Positions 27,372-32,921 of a DNA stretch of 64,000 nt are shown piece after piece (positions within the stretch are counted from its first letter, which is position 1; each line of letters starts with the position of its first letter). This DNA comes from Halorussus limi. Its GTDB lineage: Archaea > Halobacteriota > Halobacteria > Halobacteriales > Haladaptataceae. The stretch spans positions 310,001 to 374,000 of the forward strand of contig NZ_CP096660.1 in the NCBI RefSeq assembly GCF_023238205.1, read 5' to 3'. Both the position numbers and the translations under genes were made by a program. The notes below the pieces were generated by a model. It did no database searches. It saw only the letters and a list, made by a program, of their open reading frames with translations, and was not told where the DNA came from.

Positions 27372-30300
27372 CTACCGCTCGGTCCACCGTCCTGCGCCGA
27401 TTCCGTACAGCCGAGCGACGATTCCGTCGATGGTCCCTTCCAGCGCCGCGATTCGGTCGTCGAGTTCGTCGGCCTGCGCCCGGGTCTCCCGGTAGCGCGC
27501 CACGTCGTCGGCGACTCGCTCGGAGTCGGGCAGCGTCAGCGCCCGCAGGCGGTCGAGCAGGGAGTTGGTCGCGGTGGCGTGCTCGCGGAACCCCGCGAAC
27601 CCCGCGCCGCGTTCGGCCGCGGCCGGGACGAACGCCTCGACCAGCGTACGCTCGGTCGGGTCGGGGTTCGGTATCCGCATCGCGGTCACGGAGTCGGTCT
27701 CGGCGTACCCCCAGCAATCGGTCTCGCGGTCGGTTTTGCGTCCGCTCTCGCGGTCCGCGCCCGCACCGTCCGAGGGCTTGTAACGCGCCGTCGCCGACAG
27801 CGCGAGCGCACCGGTCTCCTCCTCTCGGACCCGAACTTCGCCGAACCGAAGGTTCTCCCGGTCGGCGCTCGTCTCGGCGAGGACCGAGTCGCCGACGCCG
27901 CGAGCGGGGACGCACCGCTCGCCGAGGGTCGGCCCGGCCGCCGACTTCGCTCGCTGACCGAGGTAGTCCAGCACGTCGCAGTCGAGCGCGGTCCGCCGGT
28001 CGCGGGCCGCGCGGACGCGCTCCGTCAGGGTCGCTATCGCGGACTCGGGGCCCGGAGTCGGGTCTCCGAGTTCGCCTTCGACCCCGCGCTCCGCGAGGAC
28101 TTCGGACACGTCGTCGGCGCCGACCGGCGCGTCCTCGGGGTCGGGCACCGGAATCCGCTCGGCGAACATCGGCTTGAACCGGAGGTAGTCGCCGCTGACG
28201 CGGGTGCCGCCGTACACCTGCCGGTAGTAGGTCGCCACCAACTCGGAGTTGAAGACCCCGAGCAGGTAGCGCAGCGAGCGGTCCGACTCCTCGCGTGACC
28301 GGACGACGTAGAGGGTGTTGAGCGCGTAGAACCCCGACTCGTCGTGGACCGCCGCGGGCCGGTCGCTGATGTCCCGGACGAGGAGTTTCTCGCCCTCGAA
28401 GACGTCCGGGCGCCGCAGGTCGGCGTACTCGCCGGGTCCGACCAGCGACTCGTCGTAGCGAATCCGCGACCCGTCCCAGTCGAGGCGGTATCGGTCGACC
28501 GATTTCCCGTCCACGACTTTCGGGCGGGAGTCGCGGCGCTCTCCGCCGTCGTCCTCGACCAGCAGTTTCTCGCGGACGTTCCCGGTGTGGACGCCCTCGG
28601 TCATCGTCGCGTGGTCGCCGAGGCGGTCGCACTCCGCCAGCGCGTCGGCCGCGAGGTCGGCGAAGTCGGGGGACACGCCGAGGGGAATCACCCGGCCGCC
28701 GAGCCGGTCCACGAGCGACCGGGGGACCGCGGTGGTCTCGGCGGCCGCGAGTCCCCGGTCCCCGTCCGGCCGACGGACGAGGATTTCGTCGTCTTCCTCG
28801 TCCGGGGCCGTCGCGTCGCCGTCGCCCGAGGTCGGCGCGTCGCCGTAGGTCACGACCACCGGATAGACGTCGGCGTCCGGGAACACGTCGAGGGCCGAGG
28901 CGTCGAGGACCTCCCGGAGTCCGTCGCGGTCGAGCAGGCGGTCCCGGAGCGCCCGCCCGTAGTCGGTCGTGGTCCACTTGTTCGGGACGACCAGCGAGAC
29001 CCGGCGGCCGAGGTCGGCCGCGCGTTCCGCGAAGGGGACGTAGAGGTCGTAGGCGCCCCGCGCGGTGTCGTACTCCGCGCGGTAGTACTCCTTCGGGCCG
29101 TCGGGCAGCTTCCGACTCCTGACGTAGGGCGGGTTGCCGACCACGGCGTCGAACCCGGCCTCGTCCTCTGCCAGCGGCGACCCCTCGTCGTCGTAGAACG
29201 CCTCGGGGAAGGCGAGACCCCAGTGGAAGAAGTCGCGCTCGTCGGCGATTCGCTGGGCGTCGGCGAACCACGACCGGTCGGCGAGGTCGGCCCACCGCTC
29301 GGAGTCGGAGAGCGCCCGGCCGACGCGCTCGCGAGCGTCGTCGGGAACGTCGAGACCGAACCGCTCGGCGGTGCGGACGTTCGCCGTCGCGGCGAGTCGC
29401 CGCCGTCGGTCGTCTCGCCGAATCTCGTCGTACCGGCGCTCGGTCTCCTTCACGTCCGCGAGACTCTCGCTCTCGCCGGCGACGAACTCCCGGCGGGCGG
29501 CCGACAGGTCGCCCACGCCGTCCGCGCCCGCGGCCGTCTCGCGGGCCATCGCCTCGACTTCGGCCGCGTCGGTCCCGGCCAGCGCGTCGCCGCGTTCGAG
29601 GCGATGGTCGAGGAACGCCGGCGGCCTCCCGTCGGTCAGCGTCCGGAGCCACAGCGACATCTTCGCCAACTCGACCGCCGTGCCGTCGCTGTCCACGCCG
29701 TAGATGCACCGCCGGGCGACCCGCCTCCGCACTCGGTCGACGTCGGGCGGGTCGCCCGGTTCGGCCGCGTCGTCGTCGCTTCCGGTCTCCTCCGGGCGCT
29801 CGGCCATCGCGTTACGCGTCTGCGTCCGGTGGGCCTCCGAGATTGCCTTCGCGAGGTACTCGACCGTCTCGACGAGGAAGTGGCCGCTCCCCATCGCGGG
29901 GTCCAGCACCGAGAGGTCGAAGACGCGCTCGGCGAACTCGTCGGCGTAGTCGGGGCCCTCCGGGTTCAGGTCGCTCCGAATCTCGTCCAGCAGGGGTTCG
30001 AGCGCGCTCTCGACCGCGTACTCCACGACGAACTCGGGGGTGTAGTACGACCCCGTGGTCTTCCGCTCGCCGGTCCCGGTCGTCAGGTAGACGTCGCCGG
30101 GTTCGACGCGTTCGACGGCGGCCTCCGCGGGGGCGTCCTCGGCGGGGACCCACTCCTGCTCGCCGCCCTCCCGAACCGCCGCGAGCGGCCGGTCGGCGAC
30201 GGCGAGGTCGTACTCCAGCAGGCCCTCGTAGATGCTGCCGAGGTGGCGCACGCCGAGCGACGAGTAGTCCACGAACGCCCGGCCGTCCCCGCGCGGACTC

Positions 30301-31607
30301 TCGCGACGGGCTAGCAGGTCCACGACTCGGGCGAGGTAGGTGTCGCCGACCGCACGTGAATCGAGGAACGCGGCCACTTCGCCCGCGTCGGGGTCCGACT
30401 CGAACAGGCCACCGTCGCACGCCGGTACGTAGAGGTCGTCGTCCGGGACGCCCGGCGACTCGCTCCCGCGGTCCACGAGCGCGAACAGGTCGTCGAGTCG
30501 GTCCCAGAGGGTCGTCTGCTGCGGCCGATAGGCGGGGTCCGGACTGTCGAGTTCGGCGGCGACGCGACGCTTGAGCGCGCTGAGGCTGTAGCGAGCGCGG
30601 TACCTCTCGTCGTCGGTGTCGAGCAGGTCACGGCCGTCGCTCTCGGCGTACAGCACGAAGACGAGGCGGTAGAGGTAGGTCAGCGACGCCTCGTAGACGG
30701 TGTCGAGGTCGTCCGCAGGTACGTCGTCAGCGTCCGCCACGAACCCCTGCGCGAGCAGTTCCAGCGCCTCGCGGACGTTCTCTCCGAGGTCCTCGCTCAG
30801 TTCCTCGGCGAAGGCGTTGCTCTCGCGGTAGACCCGCTCCACGAACGGGCGGTCCCCGGCGATACGGTTCGCGGGCGTCGCCTCGCTACCGGCGTCGCTC
30901 GCTCGTCGGTGGTCGTCTCCGCTTCGCTCTCCTCGCTCGCTCCGCCCGCTGTCCGCATCCCGGCCCCCGCCGAGAAACGCCTCGCGCCGGAAGAACAGGT
31001 AGAAGTACTTGAACGCCTCGCCGTCGCCGGTCTCCAGCAGGGCCGGCAAGTCTATCTCGTAGTACGAGTCGGGCTGATAGCCGGTCGGCCGGTAGTAGAG
31101 TCGCCACTTCCGGCCGTTCGTGAGGACGCCCCGGTCGAGTCCCGTCGCGTCGAGGGAGACGTGAATCCGATAACTCGGGTCGGTGCGCTCGCGGTCGGTG
31201 CTTCCGTCGAGCGACCGGTCCCACCGCTCCACGTCGGCGACAGCGAGCGCGTTCGCGTGGAACGACTGACCGCCGCGGCGGCGCTCGACGGCGTCCTCGC
31301 GGGCCTGCTCGCTCCCGAACAGGGCGTAATCCGGCCCGAGTCGCTCGCCGCTGGCGGGTCCCTCGACAGCGGTCGTCAGCCCCAGCGTCTCGAAGACCGG
31401 ACCGACCAAGTTCTCGCGCACTCCCCGTTCGCTGTAGTCGGCAATACGGTCGGACTCGCGCCGATACCGGTCGCGAATCGACTCGTAGGCCGCCCGGACC
31501 TCGGTCTCGTCGGCCGCGGTCCAGTCGTCCGTCTCCGGGAGTCGCTCGTCGAGGTAGCGGTTCGAGAACAGGCCTCGGTTCGTCCGATACTTCGGTGTCC
31601 CCCTCAT
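27372..31607 (-). CDS. Eco57I-type restriction-modification methyltransferase, nuclease motif degenerate
   Basis: A 1,411-residue protein with the single-chain Type IIG/IIL layout. The N domain holds P92-D93 (GPDYALF), then ADVERWDRSLD (124-134), where the family pattern E-x-K-x-W should stand, and TNGRKWRLYY. The methyltransferase core has motif I DPAMGSGHF (569-577) and motif IV NPPYV (825-829), which mark an N6-adenine or N4-cytosine enzyme. A target-recognition region with NSELVATYYRQVYGG and FKPMFAERIPVP follows, then a C-terminal coiled coil. E127 replaces the expected catalytic Lys and R147 the usual Gln, so cleavage may be lost. It stands alone, with an IS element close to its 5' end. 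Confidence 0.85.
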   Translation of the reverse strand: MRGTPKYRTNRGLFSNRYLDERLPETDDWTAADETEVRAAYESIRDRYRRESDRIADYSERGVRENLVGPVFETLGLTTAVEGPASGERLGPDYALFGSEQAREDAVERRRGGQSFHANALAVADVERWDRSLDGSTDRERTDPSYRIHVSLDATGLDRGVLTNGRKWRLYYRPTGYQPDSYYEIDLPALLETGDGEAFKYFYLFFRREAFLGGGRDADSGRSERGERSGDDHRRASDAGSEATPANRIAGDRPFVERVYRESNAFAEELSEDLGENVREALELLAQGFVADADDVPADDLDTVYEASLTYLYRLVFVLYAESDGRDLLDTDDERYRARYSLSALKRRVAAELDSPDPAYRPQQTTLWDRLDDLFALVDRGSESPGVPDDDLYVPACDGGLFESDPDAGEVAAFLDSRAVGDTYLARVVDLLARRESPRGDGRAFVDYSSLGVRHLGSIYEGLLEYDLAVADRPLAAVREGGEQEWVPAEDAPAEAAVERVEPGDVYLTTGTGERKTTGSYYTPEFVVEYAVESALEPLLDEIRSDLNPEGPDYADEFAERVFDLSVLDPAMGSGHFLVETVEYLAKAISEAHRTQTRNAMAERPEETGSDDDAAEPGDPPDVDRVRRRVARRCIYGVDSDGTAVELAKMSLWLRTLTDGRPPAFLDHRLERGDALAGTDAAEVEAMARETAAGADGVGDLSAARREFVAGESESLADVKETERRYDEIRRDDRRRRLAATANVRTAERFGLDVPDDARERVGRALSDSERWADLADRSWFADAQRIADERDFFHWGLAFPEAFYDDEGSPLAEDEAGFDAVVGNPPYVRSRKLPDGPKEYYRAEYDTARGAYDLYVPFAERAADLGRRVSLVVPNKWTTTDYGRALRDRLLDRDGLREVLDASALDVFPDADVYPVVVTYGDAPTSGDGDATAPDEEDDEILVRRPDGDRGLAAAETTAVPRSLVDRLGGRVIPLGVSPDFADLAADALAECDRLGDHATMTEGVHTGNVREKLLVEDDGGERRDSRPKVVDGKSVDRYRLDWDGSRIRYDESLVGPGEYADLRRPDVFEGEKLLVRDISDRPAAVHDESGFYALNTLYVVRSREESDRSLRYLLGVFNSELVATYYRQVYGGTRVSGDYLRFKPMFAERIPVPDPEDAPVGADDVSEVLAERGVEGELGDPTPGPESAIATLTERVRAARDRRTALDCDVLDYLGQRAKSAAGPTLGERCVPARGVGDSVLAETSADRENLRFGEVRVREEETGALALSATARYKPSDGAGADRESGRKTDRETDCWGYAETDSVTAMRIPNPDPTERTLVEAFVPAAAERGAGFAGFREHATATNSLLDRLRALTLPDSERVADDVARYRETRAQADELDDRIAALEGTIDGIVARLYGIGAGRWTER

Positions 31608-31794: not shown

Positions 31795-31802
31795 ACTACA
31801 GA
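31795..31802. repeat. left 8-bp target-site duplication of the IS element
   Basis: ACTACAGA stands immediately before the left terminal inverted repeat and is repeated exactly at 32849-32856. Eight-base duplications are characteristic of the IS1595 family. The perfect match indicates insertion without later rearrangement. Confidence 0.9.
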
Positions 31803-31865
31803 CGCTCTTGTGTAGAGCTACGGAAAGACCCTGTAGTTACACTGAGCCAGCTATAATCTGGGAGT

Positions 31866-32843
31866 ATGTCTTCTGCTCAGCCGGCGTTCGGCGCGATGTT
31901 TCGAGAGTTGATCAAGCTGGGCGTCGTCGAGATCGACACCGAGCCGCTCGATGCGGGCATCGAGCGGCGACTCAAGGAATTCTGGGAGAATACATCCTGT
32001 CCACGGTGCGGGCACAACTCTGTTCAAACGTGGCCGCATCTCGACCGCGTTTGGTGTCGTAACTGCAACTTCAAGCCGGTCTACACCTACGGAACGCCGT
32101 TTCACGAGAAGCACCTCACCTGCGGCGAGGTACTTCTCGCGTTCACGCTCTACGCCGATACGTTGCTCAGTATCAACCAGATCGCGCCGTTGCTCGGTCG
32201 GGCCTACAAAACCGTTCACACGGCGATTCGAGAGGTGGAAGCCGCGATCCATCGCGGCTTCCCCGTCGTTTGGGGACTCCTCGACCAGACCATCGATGGA
32301 CGGACGCAAGTTGACGAATCTGGCATAGTCTGTTCGGGGTATAAGGGACAAGAGCCGCCGCGAAACAGCCGTTCTCGCGGCGGCTCGTCCCAAACTGGCC
32401 GCTCACGTTGGCGGGGCCGCCACGGTGATCAGCTGACGCTCGTCGCGGCGTGCCGCGACTCGCTTCGCGTGATCCGTGGTCAACTCGGTATCGACTTCAG
32501 CGGTGATTTGGAGCCAGTGATTCGGGAGGCTGAAGACCTCTCCCAGCGGCTGGGAGAGGTCTGGACCGACGGACTCCAAGCCTACCGAGAGATGGACTAC
32601 GATCACCGAACAGTCGTGCACAAAGAGAGATACGTCTCGCCAGACGGCGTCCATATTAACCAAGCTGAGTGCCTGTTTTCGCTCGTCCAGCCGTGGCTGC
32701 GGAAGTTCCGCGGCCTGTCCAAGCAGGGCTTGGAACAGGCCGCTCACACCTTCGGCATCATTCGGTCACTCAACCTAGCTGGTGAATCTATCGAGTCAGC
32801 CATTGATTGTCTCATTATCGGGGCTTTCCACAGTTCTACATAA
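31866..32843 (+). CDS. IS1595-family transposase
   Basis: A 325-residue DDE transposase. The N-terminal zinc ribbon uses C45, C48, C64 and C67 (CPRC, CRNC), followed by a helix-turn-helix-like region (LLSINQIAPLLGRAYKTVHTAI). Catalytic positions are D150 (VDESG), D235 (WTDGLQAY) and E268 with N265 in HINQAECLFS, the H-x-N-x2-E signature of the ISXO2/IS1595 fold. The SGYKGQ after D150 is also typical. The frame is intact end to end. The gene contains seven long perfect or near-perfect inverted repeats with tiny loops, listed separately. Confidence 0.93.
   Translation: MSSAQPAFGAMFRELIKLGVVEIDTEPLDAGIERRLKEFWENTSCPRCGHNSVQTWPHLDRVWCRNCNFKPVYTYGTPFHEKHLTCGEVLLAFTLYADTLLSINQIAPLLGRAYKTVHTAIREVEAAIHRGFPVVWGLLDQTIDGRTQVDESGIVCSGYKGQEPPRNSRSRGGSSQTGRSRWRGRHGDQLTLVAACRDSLRVIRGQLGIDFSGDLEPVIREAEDLSQRLGEVWTDGLQAYREMDYDHRTVVHKERYVSPDGVHINQAECLFSLVQPWLRKFRGLSKQGLEQAAHTFGIIRSLNLAGESIESAIDCLIIGAFHSST
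31943..32743 (+). repeat. seven long hairpins inside the transposase gene
   Basis: Inverted repeats with short loops: 31943-31968 (12-bp arms, 2-base loop); 32105-32139 (13-bp arms, one mismatch, 9-base loop); 32237-32262 (12-bp arms, 2-base loop); 32352-32386 (12-bp arms, 11-base loop); 32442-32459 (8-bp arms, 2-base loop); 32534-32562 (13-bp perfect arms, 3-base loop); 32710-32743 (15/16-bp arms with one bulged base, 3-base loop). They recur every 90-180 bases. I saw no comparable series in the host genes I read closely. Confidence 0.88.
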
Positions 32844-32848
32844 GAGCG

Positions 32849-32856
32849 ACTACAGA
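32849..32856. repeat. right 8-bp target-site duplication of the IS element
   Basis: ACTACAGA directly after the right terminal inverted repeat, identical to 31795-31802. Confidence 0.9.
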
Positions 32857-32921
32857 AATCTCTCGGAACTATCTATGAACACAAAAGAAATACAGAACCA
32901 ACTACACGCACGCGTCCGCCG

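Follow-up and report, generated by a model that had tools for sequence, protein, structure and literature searches.

Conserved hairpin arrays along the transposase genes of haloarchaeal insertion sequences are constrained alike on both strands

In bacteria, structures that lie within a transposase mRNA or close to it, and that presumably limit synthesis of the enzyme, are known from the fold-back inhibition of IS10, the 5' stem-loop of IS200 tnpA and the structured 5'-UTR of ISPpu9. These are single 5'-end structures hiding the start region, whereas the haloarchaeal arrays described here consist of 3 to 10 hairpins distributed along the coding sequence, occur in unrelated families and are strand-symmetric. 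The genome-scale ordered RNA structure (GORS) of RNA viruses resembles them in the pervasive, conserved folding within coding sequence, beyond that of codon-shuffled controls; in contrast, the present arrays belong to DNA transposons, are made of discrete perfect hairpins, are equal on both strands, and have so far been found in one archaeal class. Haloarchaea also possess the sotRNA/omega RNA of IS200/IS605 tnpB (Rfam RF02656, PMC8303175), likewise a structured RNA overlapping a transposon gene. That RNA is processed from the 3' end of TnpB genes, whereas tnpB and IS200 tnpA carry no array and the gene studied here has no match in Rfam. Short antisense RNAs of about 45 nt at the 5' ends of haloarchaeal transposases (PMC10927574) are similar in that they, too, are found at the RNA level in many IS families of haloarchaea; they lie at the start codon and are transcripts, not hairpins, and they leave hairpins along the whole gene unexplained. 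No report of hairpin arrays along transposase coding regions was found in the open-licence literature searched, and the passages on mobilome and antisense RNA in PMC10134880, PMC6523106, PMC5892119 and PMC10927574 do not mention hairpins along transposase genes.

The window, i.e. the whole 64,000-bp stretch of Halorussus limi DNA analysed here, contains a 1047-bp insertion sequence on the plus strand (31803-32849), whose limits were set by alignment with copies at other sites. Identical 8-bp target duplications (ACTACAGA) abut both ends (31795-31802 and 32850-32857, plus strand), and 21 of the 25 bases of the left terminal inverted repeat (CGCTCTTGTGTAGAGCTACGGAAAG, 31803-31827, plus strand) are the reverse complement of the right one (32825-32849, minus strand). 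The element encodes a transposase of 325 amino acids (31866-32843, plus strand), which matches NCBIfam NF033547 transpos_IS1595 with 119.6 bits (cut-off 75) and Pfam DDE_Tnp_IS1595 with 29.7 bits (cut-off 27); transposase type, terminal inverted repeats and target duplication all place the element in the IS1595 family. A near-identical element (99.8% in DNA) is present on a Halorussus aquaticus plasmid, while three further full copies in the genome to which the window belongs (contigs C3, C4 and C5) share 92% protein identity with the window copy, which therefore seems to be a separate, recent arrival.

Seven hairpins are located inside the transposase gene between 31943 and 32743, where an earlier note on this DNA had placed them. 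The first (H1, 31943-31968) starts 78 nt into the gene and has perfect 12-bp arms with a 2-nt spacer, and the remaining six are spread as far as nt 878. H2 (32105-32139) forms 14 of 16 pairs around a 3-nt loop, H3 (32237-32262) again has perfect 12-bp arms and a 2-nt spacer, and H4 (32352-32386) has perfect 12-bp arms around an 11-nt loop, or 15-bp arms if an inner AAC/GTT helix of three pairs with one bulge is counted. They are followed by H5 (32442-32459; perfect 8-bp arms, 2-nt spacer), H6 (32534-32562; perfect 14-bp arms, 1-nt spacer) and H7 (32710-32743; arms of 9 bp, then a single bulged base and 6 further inner pairs closing a 3-nt loop). The note had counted three hairpins with perfect arms of 12-13 bp and loops of 2-3 bases; long perfect arms are indeed present, but they measure 12, 12, 12 and 14 bp.

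A few random hairpins are normal in GC-rich genes, about 0.4 per kb in the rest of the window (arms of at least 9 bp, loop of at most 16 nt), compared to 5 per kb in the transposase gene. An origin of the array in chance or in the composition of GC-rich coding sequence is nevertheless refuted. In 2000 codon shuffles of the window gene, which kept protein, codon usage and GC content and produced almost no such hairpins, perfect arms of at least 12 bp numbered 0.02 on average and one at most, and none of the shuffles reached the four observed, which bears out the note's remark that a perfect 12-bp arm should be very rare by chance. Furthermore, host genes of equal GC content on the same replicons are negative and a haloarchaeal transposase gene with a GC content of 48% (L150) is positive. 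The gene also provides an internal negative control: at 32025-32053 it contains a lookalike hairpin (83% paired) that homologues do not conserve. A search of Rfam revealed no family (sotRNA, omega RNA, small RNAs) matching the gene above its gathering score, and the analysis gave no sign that small RNAs are produced, as the note had suggested they might be.

The same seven hairpins, and no other conserved hairpin positions, were found in nearly all of 46 distinct, ungapped homologous genes with 58 to 100% protein identity. At codons for an invariant or near-invariant amino acid, third positions had an entropy of 0.24 bits in stems versus 0.99 bits outside (p ~2e-15); most stem third positions pair with first positions fixed by the protein and are therefore frozen. 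Pairing was scored over 40 genes, in which 98.1% of cells were paired, compared to only 39-49% when the structures were slid by 1-3 columns. Eleven pairs had changed on both sides (4.4 in shuffled alignments), amounting to 48 cells (10 in shuffled alignments), and none of 500 shuffles reached the observed number of paired cells, of pairs changed on both sides or of such cells. Paired cells amounted to 99.1% in H1, with a compensatory change from UA to CG, 98.0% in H3, 98.3% in H6 and 99.2% in H7, where 12 of the 15 pairs are invariant, as are all seven scored pairs of H5; H2 contains four pairs changed on both sides and H4 five, mostly between two third positions. Columns 489 and 519 of H4, both third positions, illustrate this: they change jointly and read G-C in 21, C-G in 13 and U-A in two of the 40 sequences. 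The compensatory base-pair changes expected of a structured RNA are thus present, and the covariation of arms that the note had proposed to look for is found in the homologues. The alignments argue that the array is maintained by selection at synonymous sites. Sequence-specific protein-binding sites are an unlikely cause of this conservation, because each site has a different palindrome and the pairs adjacent to the loop are the least conserved.

More distant homologues (50-62% identity) keep two to seven hairpins, not all of them in the original places (new ones are at CDS 168 and 410), and a subgroup at 28% identity that includes ISH4-like elements has its own set of hairpins elsewhere in the gene. 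Having an array is thus the more widely conserved trait, and the individual hairpins are conserved over a narrower range of relatives.

The distribution of the arrays was scrutinized in 50 transposase genes, taken from annotated haloarchaeal plasmids and from transposases of the same class and belonging to eight haloarchaeal groups (IS1595, IS630, IS4/ISH8, a second IS4 group (IS4b), IS5, ISH3, ISH6 and IS6); the set includes related copies, several families are represented by one or two genes, and all archaea sampled belong to the phylum Halobacteriota. Counting hairpins with arms of at least 9 bp and a loop of at most 16 nt, we found two or more in 48 of the 50 genes and three or more in 46 (range 2-10), compared to averages of 0-0.5 in codon shuffles. 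The highest number, ten, was found in ISH3B, and the two exceptions are a truncated gene of 648 nt without hairpins and a gene with a single one. In-depth alignments of IS630, IS4b, ISH8 and ISH3 each revealed five to nine conserved hairpins with freely varying loops, a third-position entropy of 0.14-0.40 bits in stems versus 0.66-1.21 bits outside (p 1e-8 to 1e-12), and compensatory pair types in 4-11 columns per family, such as GAGGTC/GACCTC versus GAAATC/GATTTC in ISH3. The seven hairpins of the IS1595 gene are therefore one example of a feature that DDE insertion sequences of haloarchaea share, and not a peculiarity of IS1595.

Neither is the feature general to transposons or to GC-rich or salt-adapted genomes. 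The 130 host genes from the same plasmid stretches contain 24 hairpins in total and never more than two per gene, and three transposase genes of Salinibacter, a small sample, have none. Bacterial transposase genes of the IS1, IS5, IS30, IS26, IS66 and IS4 types have none or one hairpin each, and a Tn3 transposase gene of 2.9 kb has three. Among PF01609 transposases, eight of nine haloarchaeal members carry hairpins, whereas 14 of 16 from non-haloarchaeal Halobacteriota (methanogens and relatives) have none and the other two have one. Within haloarchaea, integrases have none or one, and no hairpins were found in TnpB, IS200 TnpA or long ISH7-type transposases. ISH7-type and other long haloarchaeal transposase genes of 1.7-1.8 kb without an array are located at L288:1905-3719, L133:9224-11038, L322:2352-4055 and L323:27957-29738, and this exception may help to find the purpose of the arrays. 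As a feature of most transposase genes examined, in unrelated families of one class, and scarce in the other genes and transposons tested, the arrays suggest a common pressure on haloarchaeal transposons. The hairpin array also offers an easy way of recognising DDE elements of haloarchaea in sequence data.

This distribution also bears on a mutational origin without function, in which template switching between arms at replication perfects palindromes and thereby mimics compensation and synonymous conservation. Such a process is strand-symmetric and would keep arms matched, and disrupted IS1595 copies do retain 94% of their pairs. It should, however, hit all genes and offers no reason to single out DDE transposases: host genes on the same replicons show the low counts given above, integrases, TnpB and ISH7 genes are almost free of hairpins, and unrelated families have their arrays at different positions. 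Moreover, the disrupted copies are partly relaxed, with a ratio of stem to outside third-position entropy of 0.25 versus 0.15 and 94% versus 98% of cells paired. This mild relaxation is as expected if selection stopped recently, although it is a weak test because most disruptions are young. Taken with the host genes, these data make a purely mutational origin very improbable.

When C opposite G changes to T, a sense RNA still has a G.U pair, but when G opposite C changes to A, the pair is lost; the variants tolerated in stems can indicate on which strand the hairpins are constrained. Over five families, G.T and A.C variants occurred in 60 and 61 stem columns, respectively. Of the stem columns, 32 of 91 had C-to-T changes, which are G.U in the mRNA, and 21 of 58 had G-to-A changes, which are A.C in the mRNA; at third positions outside stems both reach about 80%, so that the two kinds of change are suppressed to a similar degree. 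As a positive control, the G-C pairs of the SRP RNA of 30 haloarchaea showed 68 G.U versus 16 A.C cells (about 4:1), or 25 versus 10 columns (2.5:1); the tolerance of G.U above A.C expected of a structured RNA is therefore absent from the IS stems. Folding energies gave the same picture. The comparison with codon shuffles that the note had suggested yielded z scores of -4 to -16 on the sense strand of the IS genes and about 0 in most host controls, so that, as in GORS, folding energy lies below that of codon shuffles over the whole coding sequence (14 IS genes), but the antisense strand equals the sense strand: relative to codon shuffles, local folding gained -70.0 kcal/mol sense versus -69.1 kcal/mol antisense (p = 0.95), and host controls were near zero. 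Within the power of the data, some 180 stem columns for the variant test, the constraint is strand-symmetric. This speaks in favour of both transcripts folding, or of the DNA doing so, rather than of a function in the mRNA only. In addition, a tnpB gene (L132:19426-20664) was observed to fold mildly better than its codon shuffles (z -2.1 sense, -3.6 antisense) despite having no array, perhaps owing to the known structured RNA at the tnpB 3' end.

The note's suggestion that the hairpins fold the mRNA thus agrees with their excess and covariation, but a purely mRNA role does not predict the parity of G.U and A.C or the equal energies of the two strands. A version of it in which only the sense mRNA folds, as a translation brake or decay control, and in which stability is so strict that G.U harms like a mismatch, would account for the same excess, conservation and covariation, and mRNA hairpins are their simplest physical form. 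A sense-RNA function for which G.U is insufficient would still be compatible with the symmetry data. The SRP RNA of the same organisms does, however, prefer G.U, by the ratios given above, in contrast to the IS stems, and the energy gained by folding is as large on the antisense as on the sense strand, which makes action through the sense mRNA only improbable.

A role at the DNA level, in which the element itself would form cruciforms or, when single-stranded, DNA hairpins, is the main rival to folding of both transcripts and would agree with the strand-symmetric constraint, different from that of SRP RNA, and with the equal excess of folding energy on the two strands. Haloarchaeal cells are polyploid and show strong gene conversion, and in yeast palindromic insertions in heteroduplex DNA resist repair. 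When a new insertion is present on one genome copy of a polyploid cell, either strand of the element might form a single-stranded loop during gene conversion, and hairpins in this loop might hinder removal of the element; in another version, cruciforms would slow RNA polymerase. An effect on DNA would represent an undescribed way for transposons to survive, or be held back, in polyploid cells. On the other hand, GC-rich arms of 12-15 bp with loops of 1-7 nt extrude poorly as cruciforms, the methanogen-related transposases tested have no arrays although polyploid methanogens also exist, and such a role does not account for the absence of arrays from TnpB, IS200 and ISH7 elements. We regard a DNA-level role as possible but somewhat unlikely, and the stronger proposition that at least eight DDE groups independently evolved strand-symmetric, DNA-acting arrays in haloarchaea, for instance shielding the looped-out element during gene conversion, as decidedly less likely.

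The reading that we favour, with a probability of roughly 45% based on the computational evidence and published expression data, is that folded sense and antisense transcripts damp transposase synthesis. Single strands from the element, i.e. the transposase mRNA and antisense transcripts, would fold through the hairpins, and this folding would keep transposase synthesis very low through stalled or slowed translation, decay, or sense-antisense RNA interference; low synthesis would give an advantage to elements that spare their host. The strand symmetry would follow if both transcripts fold. In Halobacterium salinarum, mobilome mRNAs are abundant, while only four of the 33 proteins could be observed, and three of these four were TnpB (PMC10134880). 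TnpB being the type without hairpins here, this fits post-transcriptional silencing. The same study describes Ribo-seq reads piling up at the 5' end of an ISH3 transcript, and reports that SmAP1, which according to its authors is able to melt hairpins, promotes IS4 and ISH3 transposition (PMC10134880). Antisense RNAs on transposase genes account for 58 of 846 in the H. salinarum data presented in PMC6523106, and for Haloferax volcanii 36 oxidative-stress-induced antisense RNAs on transposase genes are listed in PMC5892119. Damping by folding of mRNA and antisense RNA is therefore favoured, given this agreement with post-transcriptional silencing and the widespread transposase antisense RNAs.

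Several observations count against damping through folded transcripts. Translational control is usually strongest at the start codon, and the hairpins are not concentrated there; Salinibacter and methanogen transposases manage without arrays; and the symmetry is equally compatible with a role at the DNA level. That transposase proteins are hardly seen in H. salinarum is correlative evidence only, and the authors credit this silence to SmAP1 and antisense RNA; deletion of SmAP1 lowered, not raised, the transposition of IS4 and ISH3 (PMC10134880). The arrays point to an undescribed way by which elements or their hosts control haloarchaeal transposons, and damping by folded transcripts could explain abundant transposase mRNA with hardly any protein in Halobacterium.

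Two observations were made on the insertion sites of this IS1595 group. The window copy is inserted about 190 bp upstream of a gene encoding a 1411-aa protein with an NPPY motif (window 27372-31607, minus strand); this large protein is probably the DNA methyltransferase of a restriction-type system. Elsewhere, a dispersed inverted repeat (TTAACCAACA-N(about 21)-TGTTGGTTAA), none of which is present within the window, adjoins copies of the group 6-8 bp outside one end. Among 74 distinct insertion sites, 27 have the repeat beside the element and nine more have half of it, equally far from the end; at L002, L003, L004, L034, L073 and many IS1595 loci the distance is 7-8 bp. This looks like a choice of targets beside the palindrome, consistent with the 8-bp duplication. 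The repeat occurs eight times in 50 kb of one Natrinema versiforme plasmid (L291), mostly in intergenic positions.
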